From: an uncultured Clostridia bacterium
GTDB lineage: Bacteria; Bacillota; Clostridia; Christensenellales; Borkfalkiaceae
Length of the DNA: 51,108 nucleotides
Direction: 5' to 3'
NCBI GenBank assembly: GCA_947628675.1
Contig: CANRAR010000007.1
Coordinates: forward strand, 1 to 51,108
The translations under genes and the position numbers were made by a program. The notes under the pieces were generated by a model. That model did no database searches. It was given only the letters and a program-made list of their open reading frames with translations, and was not told the origin of the DNA. Within the stretch, counting starts at the first letter, position 1. Each line of letters begins with the position of its first letter. Below, piece after piece: positions 919-13,468 of this stretch.

Positions 919-1388
919 GAGAGAAGGCGGACATCGTAAGATTTGTAAAGATCGTCAAGCGGCTGTTCTTCGTGTTCAGCATCGTCGCCATCTTCGCCGA
1001 GATGATCCTTCTCGTGTTCTCGTTCATGAACTACTTGGGCTGCATCATCGCCGCGTGTGTGCTGGGCGTGGGGTATCTCGCCCTCTACGGCGTTTACGCC
1101 CTCCGTGTTTCCATGGGGACGGTCATCGGCATCGACGTGACGGACAAAGTCGTGCACGTAAAGACCAAGCGCAAGACGTGGACGTACGACGTAAAGCGCG
1201 GCTGCGTGGGCATGAAGGTGAAGCGGAACAAATTCGTGGCTACCTTCCAGACGCAGGACTCGCGCGATAGTTTCATCTTTTACAGGCGCGTCTGGTTCTC
1301 GCCGCACGGCGAAGAGCAATTCACCGCCGACGAAATAAGAATGTTCTATCCCTCCCTCCCCGCCGCCGACGACGAAGAAGAGGAATAA
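915..1388 (+). CDS. Small membrane protein of unknown function
   Basis: A 157-residue protein not assigned to a named family. A short basic cytoplasmic N-terminus is followed by two membrane segments (about residues 16-36 and 40-65). A soluble C-terminal region of short beta-like stretches follows (IDVTDKVVHVKTKRKTWTYD), ending in an acidic tail DDEEEE. The layout of a two-helix hairpin followed by a PH-like beta domain resembles the proteins at 13468 and 28429, but no sequence similarity was demonstrated. It overlaps the thioesterase stop by ATGA and is presumably translated by coupling with it, which may hint at a lipid or envelope role. That role is inference only. Confidence 0.7.
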   Translation: MREKADIVRFVKIVKRLFFVFSIVAIFAEMILLVFSFMNYLGCIIAACVLGVGYLALYGVYALRVSMGTVIGIDVTDKVVHVKTKRKTWTYDVKRGCVGMKVKRNKFVATFQTQDSRDSFIFYRRVWFSPHGEEQFTADEIRMFYPSLPAADDEEEE

Positions 1389-1490
1389 AAAATCAAAAAT
1401 AAAAACCAAAAACCAAATCAAAAAATCAATATAGAATATCAAAAATCAAAATCAAAAATCCAAATCAAAAAATCAAATCAAAAAGCAAAG
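1389..1490 (+). repeat. A-rich degenerate AAATC repeat spacer
   Basis: About 100 bases between the membrane protein and argG consist almost only of A with regularly spaced TC or CC, as variations of CAAAATCAAAAA. G is almost absent, in strong contrast to the GC-rich genes on both sides. No open frame or clear hairpin is present. A TATAGAAT stretch near 1430 could serve as a -10 box but has no matching -35. Confidence 0.6.
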
Positions 1491-1509
1491 GATTTCAGGA
1501 GTTAGAGAA

Positions 1510-2736
1510 ATGGAAAAGAAAATCAAGAAAGTGGTGCTCGCGTATTCGGGCGGATTGGATACCTCCATCATCATCCCGTGGCTCAAGGAGAACTACGACG
1601 GGTGTGAAGTCATCGCGGTCTCGGGCGACGTGGGGCAGGGCACCGAACTCGATGGGCTCGAAGAAAAGGCCAAAAAGACGGGCGCCTCCAAGTTGTATGT
1701 GCTCGACCTCAAAAAGGAGTTCGTGGAGGACTACATCTTCCCGACCATGCAGGCGGGCGCGGTGTACGAGGACAAATACCTTTTGGGCACTTCCTTCGCC
1801 CGTCCCGTCATCGCAAAGGCCATCGTGGAGATCGCCAAGAAGGAACACGCCGACGCCATTTGTCACGGCTGCACGGGCAAGGGCAACGATCAGGTGCGTT
1901 TCGAACTCGCCATCAAGGCGTTCGCGCCCGAGATGAAGATCATCGCCCCGTGGCGCATCTGGAACATCAAGAGCCGCGAGGAGGAAATAGAGTACGCCGA
2001 GGCGCACAACATTCCCCTCAAGATCAACCGCGAGACCAACTATTCCAAGGATAAAAACCTGTGGCACCTCTCGCACGAGGGGCTGGACTTAGAGGAGCCT
2101 TCCAACGAGCCGCAGTACGAGAAGGCGGGCTTTTTGGAGATGGGCGTTTCGCCCCTGCAGGCGCCCGACGAGCCCACCTATGTGACGCTCCACTTTGAAA
2201 AGGGCGTTCCCACGATGCTCGACGGCAAGAAGGTGGGCGCCGTCGAACTCATCGAAAAACTCAACGAGATCGGCGGCAAAAACGGCGTCGGGCTTGCGGA
2301 CCTCGTGGAAAACCGCCTCGTCGGCATGAAGTCCCGCGGGGTGTACGAGACCCCCGGCGGCACCATTTTGTATGAAGCCCACAGGCTCCTCGAGACCATC
2401 ACCCTCGACAAGGCGACCATGCACTACAAGCAACTCGTCGCGGTGAAGTTCGGCGAGATGGTGTACGACGGGCAGTGGTTTACGCCCTTGCGCGAGGCGC
2501 TCTCCGCCTTCGTTTCCAAGACGCAGGAGACGGTGACGGGCGACGTGAAACTGCGCATCTACAAGGGGAACGTGACGAGCGCGGGCATCTCCTCGCCGTA
2601 CTCCCTGTACAGCGAAACGATCGCCACCTTCTCGGACGACGGCGGCGCGTACTCGCAGAAGGACAGCGAGGGCTTCATCAACCTCTTCGGCCTGCCCATC
2701 AAGGTGAAGGCGCTTTTGGACGCGCAAAGGAAATGA
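1510..2736 (+). CDS. argG: Argininosuccinate synthase
   Basis: Joins citrulline and aspartate with ATP to give argininosuccinate, the penultimate step of arginine synthesis. The 408 residues match the usual length. The N-terminal ATP-pyrophosphatase loop AYSGGLDTS lies at residues 11-19, and family stretches such as [13 protein letters not shown] and IGGKNGVG follow. The ATG is preceded by AGGAG (1497-1501) at good spacing. It is the first gene of the arginine cluster and overlaps argC by ATGA. argH, which usually accompanies argG and completes the pathway, is not in the window. Confidence 0.97.
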
Positions 2737-3662
2737 TCCGCGCATTCATCGACGGCAAGGCGGGAACGACCGGCCTGCAAATCTACGAGCGGCTCTCCTT
2801 GCGCGGGGACGTGGAACTTCTGACCCTCCCCGAAGAGAAGCGGAAGGACGCGGCGGCGCGGAGGGAGGCGATGAACGCGGCGGACGTCGTGTTTTTGTGC
2901 CTGCCCGACGACGCGGCGCGCGAGGCGGTGGGGCTCGTGGAAAACCCCGCGACCGTCGTCATCGACGCCTCGACGGCGCACCGCACCGAGGAGGGGTGGG
3001 CATACGGCTTTCCCGAACTTGCGCCCTCGTTCCGCGAAAAAATTGCGGGAAGTAGGCGCATCGCCAACCCCGGGTGCTACGCGAGCGGGTTTCTCGCCAT
3101 CGTCTATCCGCTCGTCGCGGGCGGCATCGTCGCCCCCGACTATCCCTTCGTCTGCCACGCCGTGAGCGGCTACTCTGGCGCGGGCAAAAAGGGCATCGCG
3201 GAGTACGAGGAGGAGGGCAGGAGCGAACTTTTGAAGGCGCCGCGCCTCTATGCCTTGACCCTTTCGCACAAGCACCTGCCCGAAATGACGAAAATTGCGG
3301 GACTTTCCCATCCGCCCGTCTTTAACCCGTATGTGTGCGACTTTTACGCGGGAATGACGGTCTCCGTGCCCCTGCATCGGCGGCTTTTGCAGAAAAATTG
3401 GGGGAAAGATGACATTTTTGGCTATTTTGCAGAGTACTATGACAGACATAGGTTTATCTCTGTGACGCAAAATTCCGAAAACGGGTACCTCTCCGCGGCA
3501 AAACTCGTGGGCACCAATCTGCTGGAAATTTTCGTCGGCGGCAATGAGGAGCAGATCCAGCTCTCGGCGCGGCTCGATAACCTCGGCAAGGGGGCTTCGG
3601 GCGCGGCGGTGCAGAACATGAATCTCGCGCTGGGGCTTGACGAAACGCTCGGCTTATGTTAA
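2733..3662 (+). CDS. argC: N-acetyl-gamma-glutamyl-phosphate reductase, short (type 2) form
   Basis: Reduces N-acetylglutamyl phosphate to the semialdehyde with NADPH, the third step of ornithine synthesis. The start at 2733 gives 309 residues beginning [14 protein letters not shown], which is the nucleotide-binding loop of the short ArgC class rather than the roughly 345-residue form common in Firmicutes. The active-site cysteine is C115 in NPGCYASG. The start codon overlaps the argG stop (ATGA), so an upstream in-frame extension running through argG is not real. Confidence 0.95.
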
Positions 3663-3680
3663 AATAACAAGGATAACTGT

Positions 3681-4895
3681 ATGATAAAGAAAATCGCGGG
3701 CGGCGTGTGTGCGCCCAAGGGATTCCGCGCGAACGGCGTTCACTGCGGCATCCGCAAAAACAAAGACAAAAAAGACCTCGCCCTCATCGTGAGCGACGTG
3801 CGCTGTGCGGCGGCGGGGGTGTATACTTCCAACCTCGTGAAGGGCGCGCCCATTCTGGTGACGAAAGCGCACCTTGCGGACGGGTATGCGCGCGCCGTCA
3901 TCGTGAACAGCGGCAACGCCAACACCTGCAACGCGGACGGCATCGAGATCGCGGAGGGGATGTGTGCCCTCGTCGAGAAGTTCGCGGGCATCCCCGCGGG
4001 CGATGTTTTGGTCGCCTCGACGGGCGTCATCGGGCAAAAACTTTCGCTCGAACCCATCGAGGGGGGCATGGAGGCGCTCGTGAAGGGGCTCGGCGCGGGG
4101 AGTTCCGCCGCGGCGGAGGCCATCATGACGACGGATACCTACAAAAAAGAGGTCTCCTTCGCCTTTGAAGTGGGCGGAAAGCCCTGCCGCATCGGGGCGA
4201 TCGCCAAGGGCGTGGGCATGATCTGCCCCAATATGGCGACGATGCTCTGCTTTGTGACGACGGACGCCGCCATTTCCCCCGCAATGCTGCAACGGGCGCT
4301 TATAGAGGACGTGAAGTCGTCTTTCAATATGCTCTCCGTTGACCGCGACACTTCCACCAACGATACGCTGTGCATTATGGCGAGCGGGCTTGCGGGCAAC
4401 GCCGAAATTGCGGCGGCGGGGGCGGACTTTAACGCCTTCAAACGGGCGCTTCATAAAGTGACGGTGGCGCTCTGCCGTATGCTTGCCGCCGACGGCGAGG
4501 GGGCGACGAAACTCCTTCAATGCACCGTAAAGGGGGCAAAGACGAGAAGAGATGCGCGCCGCGCCGCCAAGGCCGTGGTGTGCTCCGACCTTCTGAAGGC
4601 CGCGATGTTCGGCGCCGACGCCAACTGGGGCAGGGTGCTGTGCGCGCTCGGCTACTCGGGCGCCGACCTCGACGTCACGAAGATCGACGTGGATTTTCGT
4701 TCCAAGGCGGGCATTTTGCCCGTGTGCAGAGACGGCGCGGGCGTGGAGTTCTCCGAAGAATTTGCAAAGCAGGTGCTCTCGGAGAAGGAAATTGACATCG
4801 ACGTGCGCGTGGGCGGCGGCCGCGGATGCGCCACGGCGTGGGGGTGCGACCTCACCTACGACTACGTGAAGATCAACGGCGATTATAGGACGTGA
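3681..4895 (+). CDS. argJ: Bifunctional ornithine acetyltransferase / N-acetylglutamate synthase
   Basis: Transfers the acetyl group from N-acetylornithine to glutamate, recycling acetyl in the cyclic arginine pathway; many members can also use acetyl-CoA. The family self-cleaves before a Thr nucleophile. Here the site is in GMICPNMATML with the predicted cut between A186 and T187. Length 404 matches the family. With argJ present and no argA or argE seen nearby, the cyclic pathway is implied. The 18-base gap to argC contains AAGGATAA as a ribosome binding site. Confidence 0.96.
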   Translation: MIKKIAGGVCAPKGFRANGVHCGIRKNKDKKDLALIVSDVRCAAAGVYTSNLVKGAPILVTKAHLADGYARAVIVNSGNANTCNADGIEIAEGMCALVEKFAGIPAGDVLVASTGVIGQKLSLEPIEGGMEALVKGLGAGSSAAAEAIMTTDTYKKEVSFAFEVGGKPCRIGAIAKGVGMICPNMATMLCFVTTDAAISPAMLQRALIEDVKSSFNMLSVDRDTSTNDTLCIMASGLAGNAEIAAAGADFNAFKRALHKVTVALCRMLAADGEGATKLLQCTVKGAKTRRDARRAAKAVVCSDLLKAAMFGADANWGRVLCALGYSGADLDVTKIDVDFRSKAGILPVCRDGAGVEFSEEFAKQVLSEKEIDIDVRVGGGRGCATAWGCDLTYDYVKINGDYRT

Positions 4896-4928
4896 TCGCG
4901 CAAATAAGACACGATTGCCCGCAAAAAA

Positions 4929-5100
4929 GATACACTCGCCGCCTGTGGCGGCTCGGTATGAGGGGACGGCGAGAGAGGCTCCTCCCTCTGTGTCCCCCTC
5001 CTCGGAGAGGAAGGGGATAGCGTTCGGACTTCGTTCTTCGGGATCCTTCGAGGATAGACTCTCGTGGACTGCGTTCAGTCGTTTCGGCTCAGGATGACGC
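4929..5100 (+). repeat. Dispersed palindromic repeat element between argJ and argB
   Basis: The 251-base gap between argJ and argB holds no credible gene but is a chain of hairpins. The first unit is GATACACTCG, a hairpin CCGCC-TGT-GGCGG, then CTCGGTATGAGG; the same flanks recur around a different hairpin at 32118-32178. Next come an imperfect CCCCTCCTC/GAGGAAGGGG hairpin near 5000-5025, ATCCTTCGAGGAT near 5043-5055, and GACTCTCG..CAGTC. The element ends near 5097; read on the minus strand that end is GTCATCCTGAGCC, a motif I recall as recurrent in intergenic repeats of many bacteria. It was probably mobilised as a non-autonomous element. Confidence 0.55.
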
Positions 5101-5146: not shown

Positions 5147-6004
5147 ATGGATATAAAACAGCAACAGGCGGAATTTTTGCTCGAGGCGATGCCGTATATC
5201 GAGAAATACCGCGATAAGATCCTCGTCATCAAGTACGGCGGAAACGCCATGACCGACGACGCGCTGAAACAGTCCGTCATGCGCGATCTCACCATCCTCC
5301 GCTTCGTGGGCATCAAAGTGGTGCTCGTGCACGGCGGAGGCCCTGAGATCACCGAGACCCTCTCCCGTATGGGGATAAGTTCGCGCTTCGTAAACGGCCT
5401 GCGCTACACCGACGCGGAGACCGCCGAAGTCGTACGCATGGTGCTCGCGGGGAAAGTGAATAAGTCGCTCGTGCATATGCTCGGCGCGCTCGGCGCGAAC
5501 GCCGTGGGGCTCTCGGGCATCGACGGAAATATGCTGCTCTGCTCCAAGGAGAACGAGGCGCTGGGCTTCGTCGGCAAGATCGAGGCCGTGGATACGGGGC
5601 TCATCCTCTCCTGCCTCGGCGCGGGGTACCTGCCCGTCATCTCCACCGTCGGCTACGACAACGAGGGCAATATCTACAACGTCAATGCCGATACGGCGGC
5701 CTCCGCCATTGCGGGCGCATTGAAAGCCGAGAGCCTCATTCTAATGACGGACATCAAGGGGCTCATGCGCGATAAAGACGACGAGGACAGCCTCATTCGC
5801 AAGGTGTACGTCTCGGATATTCCCGCGCTCGTGAAGGAGGGCATCATCTCGGGCGGCATGATCCCCAAGGTGCAGTGCTGCCGCGAGGCCATCCGCAAGG
5901 GCGTGGGACGGGTTTTCATCACCGACGGACGGGTGAAACACTCCATTTTGCTCGAACTGCTCTCCGATGAGGGAATGGGCACGATGTTTGTAAAGGGCGA
6001 CTGA
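5147..6004 (+). CDS. argB: Acetylglutamate kinase
   Basis: Phosphorylates N-acetylglutamate, the second step of the pathway and usually the point of arginine feedback. The 285 residues contain the amino-acid kinase motifs IKYGGNAM (K29), VLVHGGGPEI and NVNADTAAS. The N-terminal helix before the kinase fold (residues 1-24, MDIKQQQAEF onward) is the feature seen in arginine-inhibited hexameric enzymes, so feedback inhibition is likely by family knowledge. The ribosome binding site is weak (CAGGTAG). An intrinsic terminator follows directly. Confidence 0.96.
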   Translation: MDIKQQQAEFLLEAMPYIEKYRDKILVIKYGGNAMTDDALKQSVMRDLTILRFVGIKVVLVHGGGPEITETLSRMGISSRFVNGLRYTDAETAEVVRMVLAGKVNKSLVHMLGALGANAVGLSGIDGNMLLCSKENEALGFVGKIEAVDTGLILSCLGAGYLPVISTVGYDNEGNIYNVNADTAASAIAGALKAESLILMTDIKGLMRDKDDEDSLIRKVYVSDIPALVKEGIISGGMIPKVQCCREAIRKGVGRVFITDGRVKHSILLELLSDEGMGTMFVKGD

Positions 6005-6122: not shown

Positions 6123-7286
6123 ATGGCGGAATTTGCGGAAATCAAACAGTTGGACGAGACCTATCTCGCGCACACGTACGGGCGGTATCCCGTCGCCTTC
6201 GAGGGCGGCGAGGGGGCGACCCTGTACGGCGTGGACGGCAGGGAATACATCGACTTCGGCGCGGGCATCGCGGTGAACATCTTCGGCGTCAACGACCCCG
6301 CATGGAAGGCGGCGGTAAAGGCGCAACTCGATAAAGTTCAGCACGTGAGCAACTATTATTACTCCGAGCCCACGGTGCGGCTCGCTGAACTTCTGTGCCA
6401 AAAGACGGGTGCAAGGCGGGTGTTCTTCGGCAACTCGGGCGCGGAGGCCAACGAGTGCGCCTTCAAGACGGCGCGCAAGTACTCCTTCATGAAGTACGGC
6501 GCGGGCAGAAGCGACATCGTCTCCCTGAACGGAAGTTTCCACGGCAGGACGCTCTTCACCCTCACGGCGACGGGGCAGGACGAATTTCACAGGTATTTCG
6601 ACCCGTTCGCGGGCGGCGTGAAGTATGCCGACCCCAACCTTGCGAGCGTGAAGCGGGCGGCGGAGAAGGCGTGTGCCGTCGTCATCGAGTGCATTCAGGG
6701 CGAGGGCGGCGTGAAGGCGTTAAATCCCGAATTTGTGCGCGCGCTGGCGGACTTTTGCAGGGAGAGGGACATCCTCCTCATCTGCGACGAAGTGCAATGC
6801 GGCATGGGCAGAACGGGGAAATTTTCCGCCTACGAAAACTACGGCATTGCGCCCGACATCGTGACGCTTGCCAAGGGGCTCGCGGGGGGACTGCCCATCG
6901 GCGCGTGTCTCTTCTATGACAAAACGGCGGACGTATTGCAGCCGGGCGACCATGGCTCGACCTTCGGCGGCAACCCCGTGGCGTGTGCGGGGGGCATCTC
7001 TGTCGTCTCGCGGCTGACGGACGAATTTTTGCTCGAAGTGCAGGGCAAGGCCGCCTATCTGCGCGCCAAACTCAAGGGCTTTGACGGCGTGGAGGATGTG
7101 ACGGGGCTGGGGCTCATGATCGGCATCCATACGAAAAAACCCGCCAAGGAAATTGCACAGAAATGTTTGGAGAGGGGGGTGCTTGTTCTCACCGCGCACG
7201 ACGTGGTGCGGCTTCTTCCGCCCCTCACAATTACGAAAAATGAAATGGACGGTGGGCTTTCCGTCCTCAAAGAGGTACTCAAATGA
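6123..7286 (+). CDS. argD: Acetylornithine aminotransferase
   Basis: PLP-dependent class III aminotransferase converting N-acetylglutamate semialdehyde to N-acetylornithine; members often also act on succinyl-diaminopimelate semialdehyde. The 387 residues show FGNSGAEANE, SFHGRT, ICDEVQCGMGRTG and the PLP lysine K251 in TLAKGLAGGLP. CAGGGAAAG precedes the ATG. The end overlaps argF by ATGA. Confidence 0.95.
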   Translation: MAEFAEIKQLDETYLAHTYGRYPVAFEGGEGATLYGVDGREYIDFGAGIAVNIFGVNDPAWKAAVKAQLDKVQHVSNYYYSEPTVRLAELLCQKTGARRVFFGNSGAEANECAFKTARKYSFMKYGAGRSDIVSLNGSFHGRTLFTLTATGQDEFHRYFDPFAGGVKYADPNLASVKRAAEKACAVVIECIQGEGGVKALNPEFVRALADFCRERDILLICDEVQCGMGRTGKFSAYENYGIAPDIVTLAKGLAGGLPIGACLFYDKTADVLQPGDHGSTFGGNPVACAGGISVVSRLTDEFLLEVQGKAAYLRAKLKGFDGVEDVTGLGLMIGIHTKKPAKEIAQKCLERGVLVLTAHDVVRLLPPLTITKNEMDGGLSVLKEVLK

Positions 7287-8185
7287 AACATTTACTCAAA
7301 CTTGCCGACCTTTCGCGCGAGGAAATTCTCTCCATTCTCAACCTTGCCGACCAACTCAAATACGAGCGCAAGAACGGCGTGTTCACCCACCACTTGCAGG
7401 GGAAGAAACTCGGCATGATCTTCCAAAAATCTTCGACGCGCACCCGCGTCTCCTTTGAGACGGGGATGTACGAACTCGGCGGCTATGCGCTGTTCCTCTC
7501 CGACAGAGATCTGCAGATCGGCAGAGGCGAGCCCGTGGAGGACACGGCGCGCGTCCTTTCGCGCTACCTCGACGGCATCATGATCCGCACCTTCGAGCAG
7601 AAGGAGGTGGAGGATCTTGCAAAGTACGGCTCTATTCCCATCATCAACGGGCTCACCGACTACTGCCACCCCTGCCAGGTGCTCGCCGACCTCATGACCA
7701 TCCGCGAGTACAAAGGGGCGTTCAAGGGGCTCAAGATGTGCTTTGTCGGCGACGGCAACAACATGGCGAACTCCCTCATGGTGGGAGCCATCAAGACGGG
7801 CATGGAGTTCTCCATCGCCTGCCCCAAGGGCTACGAGCCCGACGCGGCGCTCATGGAATGGGCGAAGAAGGAGGGGACGTTCACCATGACGACGAACCCC
7901 GAAGAGGCGGCAATGAATGCCGACGTCATCTACACCGACGTTTGGGCTTCCATGGGACAGGAAGGGGAGAAGGAGAAGCGCGAGAAGGCGTTCAAAGATT
8001 TCTGCGTGGACGAAAAGGTGATGGCGGCTGCCAAGCCCGACGCGATGGTGCTGCACTGCTTGCCCGCGCACCGCGGCGAGGAGATCACGGCGGAGGTCTT
8101 TGAGGCACACGCCGATGAAATTTTCGAAGAGGCGGAGAACCGCCTCCACGCGCAGAAGGCCGTGCTCGTAAAATTATTGAAATAA
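7283..8185 (+). CDS. argF: Ornithine carbamoyltransferase
   Basis: Condenses ornithine with carbamoyl phosphate to citrulline. The 300 residues carry the carbamoyl-phosphate motif SSTRTR (50-55), HPCQVLADL, and the ornithine-side motif HCLPAHRG near residue 258. Translational coupling with argD (ATGA) and the adjacent carA and carB genes, which supply its substrate, fit an anabolic role. Confidence 0.97.
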   Translation: MKHLLKLADLSREEILSILNLADQLKYERKNGVFTHHLQGKKLGMIFQKSSTRTRVSFETGMYELGGYALFLSDRDLQIGRGEPVEDTARVLSRYLDGIMIRTFEQKEVEDLAKYGSIPIINGLTDYCHPCQVLADLMTIREYKGAFKGLKMCFVGDGNNMANSLMVGAIKTGMEFSIACPKGYEPDAALMEWAKKEGTFTMTTNPEEAAMNADVIYTDVWASMGQEGEKEKREKAFKDFCVDEKVMAAAKPDAMVLHCLPAHRGEEITAEVFEAHADEIFEEAENRLHAQKAVLVKLLK

Positions 8186-8349
8186 TTTCGTTTCCGATTT
8201 TACGAAAGGCAGGACGCCTCTTTCTATGAACGAGCAAGCCAAGGAGAACGCGTAAGCGACGACGGGAGTGTACAAAGACGTACATGACCGAGGAGCGCGC
8301 AAGTTCGACACAGGATTGCGAAGTTCAGAGGAAGAGGAACGAGGTTGAT
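8186..8349 (+). other. Intergenic region between argF and carA
   Basis: No gene is supported in these 164 bases. A weak terminator-like hairpin GAAAGGC-aggac-GCCTCTTTC occupies 8204-8224. The remainder is G- and A-rich with a GTAC...GTAC pair near 8269-8284 and no recognisable riboswitch or promoter. A pyrimidine-responsive leader would be expected here by analogy but cannot be shown. Confidence 0.4.
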
Positions 8350-9411
8350 ATGAAGAAAAAAGCATACATAACCCTGCAAAACGGGAAAGTGTTCGAGGGC
8401 GTCTCCTTCGGCGCAAAGAAGGAGGTCATCGGCGAACTCGTGTTCACCACGGGCATGACGGGGTACCTCGAGACGCTCACCGACCCGAGTTACTACGGGC
8501 AGATCGTGACGCAGACCTTTCCGCTCATCGGAAATTACGGGGTCATCCCCCCCGACTTCGAGAGCGGGAAAGTGTGGGCGAGCGCCTACATCGTGCGCGA
8601 AAAATGCGATATGCCCTCCAATTTCCGCAGTCAGGGGAACATAGAGGAATTCTTGAAGGCGCAGGGCATTCCCGCCGTGTACGGCGTGGATACCCGCGAA
8701 CTCACCAAGACGGTGCGCGAGGCGGGCGTCATGAACGCCGCCATCACCTTTGCGCCCTTTTCCGAGTTCGGGCGGCTGCAAGCCTACCGCGTGAAGAACG
8801 CCGTGCTCGCCGTGACATCGGGCAAGAGGGAGACGTACGGCGAGGGCGGACTGCACGTCGTGATGTACGACTTCGGCGCAAAGAAAAATATCGGGCGCGA
8901 ACTCGTTTCGCGCGGGTGCCGCGTGACCGTCGTGCCCGCCTACACGACGGCGGAGGAAGTGCTCTCTCTCGAGCCCGACGGCATCATGCTGACGAACGGC
9001 CCCGGCGACCCCGCCGAAAATACCGAAATTATTGCGGAAATTCGCAAACTTGCGGGCAAGAAGCCCATTTTGGGCATCTGCCTCGGGCATCAGCTCTTCG
9101 CGCTCGCCATGGGCGGCAAGACGCGCAAGATGAAGTACGGGCACCGCGGCGCGAACCAGCCCGTAAAACAAGTGGAGACGGGCAGGGTGTTCATCACCTC
9201 GCAAAATCACGGCTACGAAGTGGTGGCGGAGAGCGTCCCCGCGGGCGTTTTATCCTATGTCAACGTCAACGACGGCACGTGCGAGGGCATGGACTATCCC
9301 GAATACGACGCCTCCACCGTGCAGTTTCACCCCGAGGCGTGTGGCGGCCCGCACGACGCGAGTTTTCTGTTTGAGGCGTTCATCGCGCGCATGAAGAAGG
9401 AGAAACACTGA
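8350..9411 (+). CDS. carA: Carbamoyl-phosphate synthase small (glutaminase) subunit
   Basis: Hydrolyses glutamine and channels ammonia to CarB. The N-terminal CPSase domain is followed by a class I glutamine amidotransferase domain with the nucleophile C244 in GICLGHQLF and the downstream VQFHPEA. The start at 8350 gives 353 residues, the usual size. An upstream in-frame extension has no family support, whereas GAGG sits five bases before this ATG. It is followed after one base by the carB-dapF frame. Confidence 0.96.
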   Translation: MKKKAYITLQNGKVFEGVSFGAKKEVIGELVFTTGMTGYLETLTDPSYYGQIVTQTFPLIGNYGVIPPDFESGKVWASAYIVREKCDMPSNFRSQGNIEEFLKAQGIPAVYGVDTRELTKTVREAGVMNAAITFAPFSEFGRLQAYRVKNAVLAVTSGKRETYGEGGLHVVMYDFGAKKNIGRELVSRGCRVTVVPAYTTAEEVLSLEPDGIMLTNGPGDPAENTEIIAEIRKLAGKKPILGICLGHQLFALAMGGKTRKMKYGHRGANQPVKQVETGRVFITSQNHGYEVVAESVPAGVLSYVNVNDGTCEGMDYPEYDASTVQFHPEACGGPHDASFLFEAFIARMKKEKH

Positions 9412-9412
9412 A

Positions 9413-12400
9413 ATGCCCAAGAGAAGCGATATTAAAAAAGTCCTCGTCATCGGCTCCGGCCCCATTGTGATAGGACAGGCGGCGGAGTTCGACTATGCGG
9501 GCACACAGGCTTGCCGCGTCCTCAAGGACGAGGGGTGCAATGTCGTTCTGTGCAACTCCAACCCCGCCACCATCATGACGGATAAGATGCTCGCGGATGA
9601 AATTTATCTGGAACCGCTCACCGAGGACAGTTTGAAGCGCATCATTATAAAGGAGCGCCCCGATAGCCTCCTTGCCTCTTTGGGCGGGCAGACGGGGCTC
9701 ACGATGGGCTGCAAACTCGCCAAGAGCGGATTTTTGGACGAATGGGGGGTCAAACTCATCGGCACCAAACTCGACGCTATCGACCGCGCCGAGGATCGGG
9801 AACTCTTCAAGGAGACGATGAACAAGATCGGGCAGCCCGTCGTGCCCTCGGACATCGCCTACACCGTGGAGGAGTGCGTTGCAATCGCAAATAAACTCGG
9901 CTATCCCGTCATCGTGCGGCCTGCCTTCACTTTGGGCGGCGCGGGCGGGGGAGTAGCGCGGGACGAGGAGGAACTCCGCCTCATCTCCCACAACGGGTTG
10001 ATGCTCTCGCCCATCACGCAGGTGCTCATCGAGAAGTACATCGGCGGGTGGAAGGAAATCGAATTTGAAGTCCTGCGCGACGGGAAGGGGAACGTCATCA
10101 CCGTCTGCTCGATGGAGAACGTCGATCCCGTGGGGGTGCATACGGGGGATTCCGTCGTCATTGCGCCCGCCGTGACGCTCTCCGACAAGGAATACCAGAT
10201 GCTCCGCACGGCGTCGCTCGACATCATCACAGAACTCGGCATTGAGGGCGGCTGCAACTGCCAATTTGCGCTCTATCCCGATAGTTTCGAGTACGCCGTC
10301 ATCGAGGTCAACCCCCGCGTTTCGCGCTCCTCGGCGCTCGCCTCCAAGGCGACGGGCTATCCCATTGCCAAGGTGGCTTCCAAAATTGCGCTCGGCTATA
10401 CCCTCGACGAGATCAAGAACGACGTCACGGGCAAGACGTACGCCTGCTTCGAGCCCACCATCGACTACGTCGTCGTAAAACTGCCCAAGTGGCCGTTCGA
10501 TAAATTTTTGTACGCCAAGCGCGACTTGGGCTCGCGCATGAAGGCGACGGGGGAGGTGATGGCGATCGGCGCCTCCTTCGAACAGGCCATCATGAAGGCG
10601 GTGCGCGGGGCGGAGATCTCCCTCGACACCTTGAATCACCCCAAGTTTGCGAATATGTCCGCGGGCGAACTGCGGGAGGAGATCAAAAAGCAGACCGACG
10701 AGCGGCTGTTCGCCGTGTTCGCCGCCTTGAAGGCGGGCATCTCCGTGGACGAGATTTATTCCGTCACCAAGATCGACGAGTGGTTTTTGTGGAAATTCGT
10801 CAATTTAATTGAATACGAGCGCGCCATTGCGGGCAAAAAACTTACGCGGGCGCAGTATCTCGAGGGCAAGCGGTTGGGCTTCCCCGATCGGGCGCTCGCC
10901 CGCATTTCGGGTGAAAAACTTCCCATGTACCGCCGCGCTTGCTTCAAAATGGTGGATACCTGCGCCGCCGAATTTGCCGCGCAGACGCCGTACTTCTATT
11001 CGACGTACGACGACCCCGCGGACGACGAGGCCAAGCCCTTCGTGAAGCGGAGCGGCAAGCGGCGCGTCATCGTCATCGGCTCGGGCCCCATCCGCATCGG
11101 GCAGGGCATCGAGTTCGACTACTCCTCCGTCCACTGCGTGTGGGCATTGAAGCGGCTCGGGTACGAGGTCGTCATCATCAACAACAACCCCGAGACCGTC
11201 TCCACCGACTTCGACACGGCGGACAGGCTGTACTTTGAAAGCCTCACGCCCGAGGACGTGCAGAACGTCATCGACGTCGAAAAGCCCTACGGCGTCGTCA
11301 TCACCTTCGGCGGGCAGACCGCCATCAAACTGTGTTCCTATCTCGACAAGGCGGGGGTGCGCATCCTCGGCACGAGTGCGGACAGCGTGGATATGGCGGA
11401 GGACAGGGAGCGCTTCGACGAACTCTTGGAGCAGTTCGGCATCGCACGGCCGAAGGGGCTGACCGTCATGACCAAGGAGGAGGCCGTGCGGGCGGCGGAG
11501 ACTTTGGGCTATCCCGTGCTTCTGCGCCCCTCGTACGTCATCGGCGGGCAGAACATGACCATCGCCTTCACCGAGAACGACATTGCGCGATATATGGACG
11601 TCATTTTGGCGCAGCATATCGAAAATCCCGTGCTCTGCGATAAGTACCTCATGGGGACGGAACTCGAAGTGGACGCCATCTCCGACGGCGTGGATGTTCT
11701 CATCCCCGGCATCATGCAGCACATCGAGCGCGCGGGGGTGCACTCGGGGGACTCCATTGCGGTGTATCCGCCGTACCACCTCGCCGACGCCATGAAGAGC
11801 CGCATTGTGGAAGTTTCCACTCGGCTTGCGCTCGCCTTAAAGACCAAGGGGCTCATCAACATCCAATATCTCATCTATCAGAACAGGTTGTACGTCATCG
11901 AAGTCAACCCGCGCGCCTCGCGCACCATTCCGTACATCTCCAAGGTGACGGGGGTGCCCATGGTGGACATCGCCACCAAGATCATGGTGGGGGCGAAACT
12001 TCGCCGCCTCGGCTACGGCACGGGGCTGTACCCCGATTCGCCGTACGTCGCCGTGAAGGTGCCCGTGTTCTCCTTTGAAAAACTCAACGACGTCAACTCC
12101 CAACTCGGGCCCGAGATGAAATCGACAGGGGAAGTGCTCGGCATCGGCAAGACCATCGAGGAGGCGCTCTTCAAGGGGCTTGTCTCGGCGGGCTTCAAGA
12201 TGTGCCATCCCACCAAGGAAAAGCCCGTCGGCGTGTACTTTACCGTCAACGATCAGGATAAGTTCGAACTCGTCTCCATCGCCAAGAAGTTTGCCGACCT
12301 CGGCTGTAACCTCTATGCAACGGCGGGCACGGCGAAGGTCATCTCCGACCTCGGCATCGACGTCACCGTCGTGGAACGCTTGAAGGCCACCAAGCGCGTC

Positions 12401-13468
12401 TCCAAACTCATGGACGAGGGCAAGATCGACTATATCATCTACACGGGCAAGACGGACGTGGATAGCATTGCCGACTACATCGAACTGCACCACCACGCAA
12501 TCCTACTCGGCGTGACGGTACTCACCTCCCTCGATACGGCGCGGGCGCTCTCGGACATCATTGCGAGCAAGTTCACGGAGTACAACACCGAACTTGTGGA
12601 TATCAACAATCTGCGCAAGAAGAGGACGGAACTGCACTTCACCAAGATGCAGTCGTGCGGCAACGACTACATCTACTTCGAGAATATGGACGGGGCGATC
12701 ACCTGCCCCGAATCGCTCGCCGTCAACTTCGTCAGCCGCCACTACGGCATCGGCGGGGACGGCATCGTGCTCATTGAGAAGTCCGACGTTGCCGACGCCA
12801 AGATGCGCATCTTCAACCAGGACGGCTCGGAGGGCAACATGGCGGGCAACGCCATACGGTGCGTCGCCAAGTACCTCCACGAGAAGGGCATCGTGAAGGG
12901 CGAGACCATGACCATCGACACGATGAGCGGCGTCAAGACGGTGAAGGTGTTCTCCTTCAACGGCATCGTCTCTTCGGCGAGCGTAAATTTGGGGCTTGCC
13001 GAGTTCCGCGGCGAGAAAATTCCCTCCGTGTGGAGGGGGGAGAAGGTCGTAAAGGCGCCCATGGAGATCGAGGGGACGACGTACGATGTGACCCTCGTCA
13101 ACCTCGGCAACCCGCACTGCGTTATCTTCTGCGACAAGGTGGACGATGTGCCCGTGAAGACGCTCGGCCCCAAGATCGAGAACAGCAAGTATTTCCCGCA
13201 GCGCACCAATGTGGAGTTTGTGCGCGTCGTCAACGAGGCGACCATCAAGATGCGCGTGTGGGAGCGCGGCAACGGCGAAACGTGGGCTTGCGGCACGGGC
13301 GCCGCGGCTGCCGCCGTCGCAAGCGTGATGTGCGGCTACTGCCGCCGCGATACCGACATCACCGTGAAGGTGCGCGGGGGAGACCTCATCGTGCGGTATT
13401 CCTCCGACGGTTCGGTGACGCTCACGGGCAACGTCGAAAAAATTTACGAGGGGACGGTGGAGTTCTGA
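9413..13468 (+). CDS. carB: CarB-DapF fusion: carbamoyl-phosphate synthase large subunit joined to diaminopimelate epimerase
   Basis: A single 1351-residue frame. Residues 1 to about 1070 are a complete CarB: two ATP-grasp halves beginning VLVIGSGPIVIGQAAEFDYA and VIVIGSGPIRIGQGIEFDYS, then an allosteric MGS-like domain from about residue 935. Without a linker, ELHFTKMQSCGNDYIYFE (from residue 1073) opens a full 279-residue DapF. Its family residues include FNQDGSE, NLGNPH, TNVEFV, ERGNGE and the second catalytic cysteine C1293 in WACGTGA. The first catalytic cysteine, usually in MCGN, is alanine (A1144 in NMAGNAIRC). CarB makes carbamoyl phosphate for arginine and pyrimidines; DapF would make meso-DAP for lysine and peptidoglycan. 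There is no stop or good internal start at the junction. The end overlaps the next gene by TGATG. Confidence 0.93.
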   Translation: MPKRSDIKKVLVIGSGPIVIGQAAEFDYAGTQACRVLKDEGCNVVLCNSNPATIMTDKMLADEIYLEPLTEDSLKRIIIKERPDSLLASLGGQTGLTMGCKLAKSGFLDEWGVKLIGTKLDAIDRAEDRELFKETMNKIGQPVVPSDIAYTVEECVAIANKLGYPVIVRPAFTLGGAGGGVARDEEELRLISHNGLMLSPITQVLIEKYIGGWKEIEFEVLRDGKGNVITVCSMENVDPVGVHTGDSVVIAPAVTLSDKEYQMLRTASLDIITELGIEGGCNCQFALYPDSFEYAVIEVNPRVSRSSALASKATGYPIAKVASKIALGYTLDEIKNDVTGKTYACFEPTIDYVVVKLPKWPFDKFLYAKRDLGSRMKATGEVMAIGASFEQAIMKAVRGAEISLDTLNHPKFANMSAGELREEIKKQTDERLFAVFAALKAGISVDEIYSVTKIDEWFLWKFVNLIEYERAIAGKKLTRAQYLEGKRLGFPDRALARISGEKLPMYRRACFKMVDTCAAEFAAQTPYFYSTYDDPADDEAKPFVKRSGKRRVIVIGSGPIRIGQGIEFDYSSVHCVWALKRLGYEVVIINNNPETVSTDFDTADRLYFESLTPEDVQNVIDVEKPYGVVITFGGQTAIKLCSYLDKAGVRILGTSADSVDMAEDRERFDELLEQFGIARPKGLTVMTKEEAVRAAETLGYPVLLRPSYVIGGQNMTIAFTENDIARYMDVILAQHIENPVLCDKYLMGTELEVDAISDGVDVLIPGIMQHIERAGVHSGDSIAVYPPYHLADAMKSRIVEVSTRLALALKTKGLINIQYLIYQNRLYVIEVNPRASRTIPYISKVTGVPMVDIATKIMVGAKLRRLGYGTGLYPDSPYVAVKVPVFSFEKLNDVNSQLGPEMKSTGEVLGIGKTIEEALFKGLVSAGFKMCHPTKEKPVGVYFTVNDQDKFELVSIAKKFADLGCNLYATAGTAKVISDLGIDVTVVERLKATKRVSKLMDEGKIDYIIYTGKTDVDSIADYIELHHHAILLGVTVLTSLDTARALSDIIASKFTEYNTELVDINNLRKKRTELHFTKMQSCGNDYIYFENMDGAITCPESLAVNFVSRHYGIGGDGIVLIEKSDVADAKMRIFNQDGSEGNMAGNAIRCVAKYLHEKGIVKGETMTIDTMSGVKTVKVFSFNGIVSSASVNLGLAEFRGEKIPSVWRGEKVVKAPMEIEGTTYDVTLVNLGNPHCVIFCDKVDDVPVKTLGPKIENSKYFPQRTNVEFVRVVNEATIKMRVWERGNGETWACGTGAAAAAVASVMCGYCRRDTDITVKVRGGDLIVRYSSDGSVTLTGNVEKIYEGTVEF

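Follow-up and report, generated by a model that had tools for sequence, protein, structure and literature searches.

A gene in a 51,108-nucleotide stretch of DNA from an uncultured Clostridia bacterium (contig CANRAR010000007.1; "the window" is this whole stretch) raises the question of why CarB, the large subunit of carbamoyl phosphate synthetase (CPS), should end in the fold of DapF, the diaminopimelate (DAP) epimerase of lysine and cell-wall synthesis. Genomes are labeled G and loci or alignment rows L; G000 is the window's genome and L001 the fused protein of the window. A sequence-only reading of the window had claimed a complete CarB fused in frame to a complete DapF. The fusion is confirmed by an uninterrupted frame of 1351 codons with no stop between the CarB part and the full DapF fold, by matches of both halves above the family cut-offs (TIGR01369 for CarB, residues 2-1047, 1405.6 bits, cut-off 1027; TIGR00652 for DapF, residues 1075-1349, 263.3 bits, cut-off 114.65), and by fused relatives. 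The claim of a complete DapF holds for the fold but not for the active site, since the first catalytic cysteine is replaced by alanine. We propose that the domain is now a DapF-derived ligand-binding, probably regulatory module on CarB, and put the probability of this at roughly 45%. The gene and its parts are as follows.

9413-13468, + strand: the fused carB-dapF gene, 1351 amino acids, a single open frame.
9413-12613, + strand: the CarB part (both ATP-grasp halves, oligomerisation domain and MGS domain), ending ...NTELVDINNL; matched by TIGR01369, with its end set by the C-termini of unfused CarBs.
12266-12526, + strand: the MGS (allosteric) domain, residues 952-1038; PF02142, 45.7 bits.
12614-12628, + strand: the junction RKKRT, with ACG at 12626-12628 where six relatives have ATG preceded by a Shine-Dalgarno-like GAGG.
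12629-13465, + strand: the DapF-like domain, residues 1073-1351 (279 residues), placed by TIGR00652 (263.3 bits), a structure model and Foldseek.
12842-12844, + strand: Ala1144 (GCG), at the first catalytic cysteine (Cys73 of H. influenzae DapF), from alignment to solved DapFs and relatives.
13289-13291, + strand: Cys1293, the second catalytic cysteine (Cys217), retained, from the same alignment.

CarB takes up residues 1-1067 of the chain and the DapF fold residues 1073-1351. The near absence of a linker, noted from the sequence, is borne out by unfused CarBs elsewhere, which stop at the aligned place (L268, ...LVDINTI; L274, ...MVDINTIR; L032 and L266, ...LVDINH). The Pfam domains of the chain are CPSase D1 (twice), D2 (twice), D3, MGS and DAP_epimerase. 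At E 0.001, it matches 11 Pfam families (CPS, other ATP-grasp, MGS and DAP_epimerase), with no carbamoyltransferase or dihydroorotase family among them. An AlphaFold2 model of residues 930-1351 has a mean pLDDT of 89.4 and a pTM of 0.76, and DapF structures are the top Foldseek matches of the DapF-like domain. The chain thus resembles CarB (TIGR01369) in having all of its domains, a score above the cut-off, and carA directly upstream, and differs in the 279-residue DapF domain after MGS. It resembles DapF (TIGR00652, PF01678) in the whole fold, the score above the cut-off, Cys217 and the substrate-contacting residues, and differs in the alanine at the first catalytic cysteine and in the fusion to CarB. 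Judging by its family, the CarB part would make carbamoyl phosphate.

Could an assembly or sequencing error have joined two genes? The related records are mostly titled metagenome assemblies, which is compatible with such an artefact. However, 105 of the 113 loci gathered by similarity to the window protein are fused (some loci being one genome reached via two tools), including that of Oscillibacter ruminantium GH1 (NZ_DF158897.1, L107), and the fusion is also found in genomes listed as a single contig (G277, G680 and G657). An artefact or a missed stop is ruled out by these fused relatives, and we give it practically no weight. A full-length fused frame, 82-93% identical, is present in 17 of 36 genomes of the window's genus, and others carry parts of the frame at contig ends. 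Seven genomes of the genus (G009, G010, G028, G029, G030, G031 and G032; G009 and G029 at 99% completeness) have a stand-alone DapF but no CarB-DapF among the matches listed; these may have lost the arginine/CPS operon. A class-wide draw of 393 genomes gave 311 with a match at E 1e-200, of which at least 45, counting the window's own, are fused. The fused genomes of this draw carry 23 family codes. In a phylum-wide draw of 398 genomes, the fusion was present in at least 17, two of them (G000 and G191) from the window's class. Besides O. ruminantium GH1, record titles with the fusion include Gemmiger sp. An120 and Candidatus Borkfalkia faecigallinarum.

We then considered whether the fused domain can work as an epimerase. 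In solved DapFs, a catalytic cysteine aligns to Ala1144, and Cys1293 corresponds to the second; of the two catalytic cysteines of a DapF (73 and 217), the window domain therefore has one. All eight substrate-contacting residues are kept (N11, N64, N75, N157, N190, E208, R209 and T219; row L001). According to excerpts of a study of C. glutamicum DapF, the C83A and C221A mutants have nearly no activity, and the same is true of N15A, N74A, N85A, N159A, N194A, E212A, R213A and T223A (PMC5296763). In Anabaena DapF, the far end of DAP is held by Asn66, Asn164, Asn197, Glu215 and Arg216, as given in excerpts of PMC12039745; these residues belong to the eight pocket positions intact in the window. Because of Ala1144, and because published Cys-to-Ala mutants are almost inactive, the window domain is probably unable to epimerise DAP. 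Its pocket looks fit for DAP, minus one of the two proton carriers.

The genome of the window has another source of the enzyme. A second, stand-alone dapF, for which the sequence-only reading had suggested a search, was found at G000:C10:9581-10414; its product is 48% identical to the fused domain and has both cysteines, and the gene lies 1629 bases from dapL on the same strand. We considered that it might be a recent duplicate of the fused domain and rejected this, as the protein clusters with stand-alone DapFs from its genus and not with the fused domains. A full DapF fold above the curated cut-off would agree with a working bifunctional enzyme in this genome, in which the fused DapF makes meso-DAP in coordination with CarB, and this very likely holds for relatives that have kept the first cysteine and lack another DapF. 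For the window's genome, however, we consider it very unlikely: Ala1144 is set against it by the almost inactive Cys-to-Ala mutants, and the intact stand-alone dapF sits 1.6 kb from dapL. On Ala1144 and the separate DapF we rejected the fusion as the meso-DAP source here, and it is probably no source of it.

The loss of one cysteine is widespread among the fused domains, which we call Cys-kept or Cys-lost by their first catalytic position. In 123 distinct fused domains, this position is Ala in 75, Cys in 21, Gly in 20, Ser in 4 and Thr in 3, and the second is Cys in 119 and Ser in 4. For 61 stand-alone DapFs, the counts are Cys in 59 and Ser in 2 at the first position, and Cys in 58 and Ser in 3 at the second. 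Cys217 is retained in 98/102 distinct Cys-lost domains and in 61/63 Cys-lost rows of the tree set, and the eight pocket residues and Cys217 are all whole in every one of the 21 Cys-kept domains. Such frequent sparing of one cysteine of two would not be expected of random decay, yet the pocket is not spared everywhere. In four domains of the window's genus (L019-L022, from G002, G007, G016 and G006), both cysteines and several pocket residues are lost, and the domain is still in frame on CarB. Two stand-alone DapF-like proteins, L233 (G037) and L235 (G056), have Ser at both cysteine positions and are possibly a further disarmed branch.

Retention of Cys217 in 98 of the 102 Cys-lost domains is also what one would see if this cysteine, acting alone on some amino acid, carried out a one-sided reaction, be it dehydration, elimination or proton exchange in one direction. 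A protein that lost one cysteine and gained a new reaction is already known: in a related, proline racemase fold, a Cys-to-Thr change made the human trans-3-hydroxyproline enzyme a dehydratase, as described in excerpts of PMC8142540. Dehydratases of this type are among the Foldseek matches, and they share with the fused domains a racemase-like fold and the replacement of one of two catalytic cysteines. Thr or Ser occupies the first position in 7/123 fused domains. However, Ala or Gly is the usual replacement (95/123), and no reaction is known for the fused domains, unlike the dehydratase with its Thr and known new reaction. Furthermore, the positions that hold the far end of DAP are largely conserved, which makes a change of ligand improbable, and single Cys-to-Ala DapF mutants are nearly inactive as epimerases. 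We regard a repurposed one-cysteine catalyst as unlikely.

If the cysteine was lost where meso-DAP had another source, Cys-lost genomes should have one. DapL supplies LL-DAP, and Ddh is a bypass enzyme that makes meso-DAP directly. The 45 genomes of the first set (44 and G000) are each at least 90% complete and divide into 23 Cys-kept without and 2 with a stand-alone DapF, and 15 Cys-lost with and 5 without one (Fisher p 5e-6, uncorrected for kinship; G413 was tallied as Cys-kept despite an eroded pocket and a Ser for its second cysteine). In a second set of 50 genomes, whose completeness is not stated, the corresponding numbers are 5, 2, 36 and 7; seven weak second matches in this set were confirmed as DapF above the cut-off. 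Together, the 95 fused genomes comprise 32 Cys-kept, 28 of them without a stand-alone copy, and 63 Cys-lost, 51 of them with one. Of the 40 without a second DapF, 28 are thus Cys-kept, and Ddh is present in 10 of the 12 others. All five Cys-lost exceptions of the first set have Ddh and lack DapL and therefore probably need no DapF; in the second set, Ddh is found in 5/7. In 22 of the 23 Cys-kept genomes of the first set without a stand-alone copy, DapL is present, the exception being G413 with its odd, eroded domain. Since these Cys-kept lineages have no second DapF, keep the first cysteine, and have LL-DAP supplied by DapL, their fusion is very probably a working bifunctional enzyme. In a separate observation, six of 36 genomes searched (G453, G269, G179, G471, G422 and G298), all listed at 93% completeness or more, gave no DapF at E 1e-10.

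Gene order agrees with the link between cysteine loss and a back-up source. In 12/13 Cys-lost genomes with both genes, no more than 2 kb separates the stand-alone dapF from dapL, and the two share a strand. For the fused gene, a distance to dapL of at most 2.5 kb is seen in 7/22 Cys-kept genomes that have dapL and no stand-alone copy, and in 1/13 Cys-lost genomes with dapL (G381). Two genomes, G117 and G119, have kept the cysteine although a stand-alone dapF adjoins dapL, and their tree partners, G486 and G277, have the same arrangement with the cysteine lost. This suggests that the second gene came first and the loss of the cysteine followed.

The junction points to how the fusion arose. Inside the fused frame, the former dapF start reads ATG with a Shine-Dalgarno-like GAGG ahead in 6/32 Cys-kept rows and 0/63 Cys-lost rows; a start codon without such a stretch is found in 7 rows of each kind. 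In all six relatives with ATG and GAGG, dapL is within 2.5 kb. The ancestor was likely a carB-dapF-dapL operon in which the stop of carB was then lost. An arrangement comparable to this proposed ancestor is seen at 962-5059 of G147:C57 (L219), where a different carB is followed, a few codons past its stop and in the same frame, by an intact, unfused dapF. A start with a Shine-Dalgarno-like stretch is absent at the old dapF start of the window, where other internal starts were not searched for. Because this position is ACG without such a stretch, separate synthesis of the DapF part looks unlikely in the window; it may occur in the six relatives.

A CarB tree of 95 rows requires only 7 changes between Cys-kept and Cys-lost, and the genome counts are therefore not independent. 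One clade of 56 rows is all Cys-lost save L254. The other, of 39 rows, is mostly Cys-kept with about five further losses (L251 to Ala, L249 to Ser, L088 to Gly, L166 to Ser, and the four-row group L163, L164, L165 and L169 to Gly). L254 (G413:C34:115000-120000) is an outlying fused domain (TIGR00652 E 1e-45) that reads CGN but carries Ser for the second cysteine and lacks most pocket residues; its place inside the Cys-lost CarB clade would mean that the loss was reversed, that the domain was fused anew, or that the alignment slipped. An approximately unbiased (AU) test rejected the grouping of all fused CarBs in one clade (p 3e-6); in this test the examined group was named after inspection of the tree and long branches are present. 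The result fits loss of the domain and also more than one fusion. Nested within the fused clade are the unfused CarBs of G580 and of G271, G047 and G403. CarB seems able to dispense with the DapF domain, though repeated fusion would account for the rejected single clade as well.

Is the disarmed domain still maintained? In Cys-lost pairs where it could be computed, the ratio of nonsynonymous to synonymous rates (dN/dS) is 0.02-0.30 for the DapF domain and 0.016-0.154 for CarB, with dS saturated in many pairs; for the window and G443, the values are 0.125 and 0.073. The DapF part is under purifying selection and is less constrained than CarB. A tolerated read-through of adjacent genes, which the sequence-only reading had offered as one explanation, fails as the whole story given this selection and the 23 family codes. 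Among 51 Cys-lost rows, from which 12 eroded ones had been removed beforehand, N64, N75, N157, P158, H159, N190, E208, C217 and G218 are invariant, and R209 (98%), T219 (92%) and N11 (82%) are nearly so; the domain median is 1.24 bits. Of the 12 eroded rows, 10 form one branch, which includes G276 of the window's family.

The course of events that we propose begins with an old in-frame fusion of carB to the dapF gene behind it. The product would have been a working bifunctional enzyme, and would have turned into a ligand-binding module where meso-DAP had another source. In known DapFs, the two lobes close on the ligand, as stated in excerpts of PMC5296763; the disarmed domain would close on DAP or a similar di-amino acid in the same way, and closure beside the MGS domain would tune carbamoyl phosphate synthesis in the arginine operon. 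The sequence-only reading had suggested that joining DapF to the allosteric end of CarB could tie the two pathways together. A regulatory tie is still the best reading, with the direction reversed: DAP or a like amino acid would be the signal to CarB, and effectors of CarB would not govern DapF. Binding of DAP, regulation, and an effect on CarB are what we infer.

Several results weigh against this proposal. The pocket and Cys217 are whole in only 69/102 distinct Cys-lost domains. In the window's genus the pocket is whole in 14/22 domains, and the second cysteine is also lost in 4/22 (L019-L022) with the domain still retained. The dN/dS of the DapF domain in Cys-lost pairs is mostly 2-4 times that of CarB, indicating relaxed constraint, and in the 12 eroded rows the pocket is no more conserved than the rest (mean 0.90 versus 1.13 bits, p 0.17). 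As for the link with a back-up source, the Cys-lost G065 and G069, both of which may be incomplete, show neither a second DapF nor Ddh; four Cys-kept genomes (G117, G119, G087 and G105) have a stand-alone DapF; and Ddh does not discriminate, being present in 8/11 tested Cys-kept genomes without a stand-alone copy. An independent-pair test on the tree had only 6 pairs, with the stand-alone gene going in the same direction in 3.2 on average (median p 0.25), and with kinship taken into account, the association of cysteine loss with a back-up falls short of significance.

Some of these points favor a structural passenger, a domain that aids CarB folding or dimer or tetramer formation, or that cannot easily be shed, with no role for ligand binding. 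Damaged pockets are retained, 33/102 Cys-lost domains (8/22 in the window's genus) having lost Cys217 or one or more of the eight pocket residues; eroded rows and the relaxed dN/dS agree with this, and C. glutamicum DapF is a dimer according to excerpts of PMC5296763. In some lineages the role may be no more than structural, as the eroded domains suggest. However, folding alone does not require the whole pocket found in 69/102 Cys-lost domains or the Cys217 kept in 61/63 Cys-lost rows of the tree set, and with unfused rows inside the fused clade the domain is apparently sheddable. For the window, we hold a passenger to be possible, though doubtful.

In the window, carB-dapF is the last gene of an arginine operon in the order argG, argC, argJ, argB, argD, argF, carA and carB-dapF, all on the + strand.

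1510-2736, + strand: argG; TIGR00032, 485.6 bits.
2475-3662, + strand: argC (frame; the family match starts at its residue 89); TIGR01851, 390 bits.
3681-4895, + strand: argJ; TIGR00120, 451.5 bits.
5147-6004, + strand: argB; TIGR00761, 255.4 bits.
6123-7286, + strand: argD; TIGR00707, 427.2 bits.
7283-8185, + strand: argF, ornithine carbamoyltransferase; TIGR00658, 429.4 bits.
8284-9411, + strand: carA, the small subunit, 1 base before carB; TIGR01368, 430.2 bits.

No second CarB was found in the window's genome (93.88% complete), where the search otherwise matched only the stand-alone DapF and, weakly, two ATP-grasp regions. An alignment of the MGS domain (12266-12526) to E. coli CarB, judged by eye, has Lys954, Thr974 and Thr977 kept and Asn1015, Thr1017 and Glu892 not kept; these are residues to which control by nucleotides and ornithine is ascribed, so that this CarB may respond differently to the classical effectors.

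DapF is already known as a non-catalytic partner: in E. coli, RppH is bound and stimulated even by a DapF in which both cysteines are substituted, as reported in excerpts of PMC4227774, and structures of the DapF-RppH complex (6d13 and 6vck) are among our structure matches. There, too, DapF is the partner of another enzyme and does not need its two cysteines; in contrast to the fusion, these are separate proteins, the partner is unrelated, and DapF is also a working epimerase. A different CPS fusion is animal CAD, a multienzyme with aspartate carbamoyltransferase and dihydroorotase domains. CAD likewise has the large part of CPS fused to further domains, but its partners belong to the same pathway, whereas the partner in the window comes from lysine and cell-wall synthesis and is disarmed. 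For the multienzyme type of CPS, only the mitochondrial CPS chains 5dot and 6uel appeared among the structure matches. In the open-access literature searched (CC-licensed PMC papers), there was no report of the fusion or of a disarmed DapF; the excerpts of a paper on oomycete fusions (PMC2705460) describe a different lysine-pathway fusion, without DapF. Neither half is a new family; as far as searched, the pairing, its breadth, and the repeated loss of one cysteine with a mostly spared pocket are apparently undescribed in this literature, and protein databases may list the architecture.

These findings carry a warning for annotation in both directions. Scoring the window chain as DapF would give a false positive for the DAP pathway, and a CarB-only label would miss the sole DapF found in 28/95 fused genomes examined. 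The fusion also offers a natural series, in which one domain goes from the sole, probably working epimerase to a disarmed module with its pocket mostly kept and in places eroded; the Cys-kept genomes that also have a stand-alone copy are possible intermediates. At its furthest, and this we offer only tentatively, the series would mean that carbamoyl phosphate synthetase gained an inbuilt DAP sensor when the domain lost one cysteine on several separate branches; in a large group of Clostridia, the supply of this cell-wall and lysine precursor would then directly govern the flux towards arginine and pyrimidines. We know of no bacterial case in which carbamoyl phosphate synthesis is controlled by a cell-wall precursor; if true, this would be such direct control.

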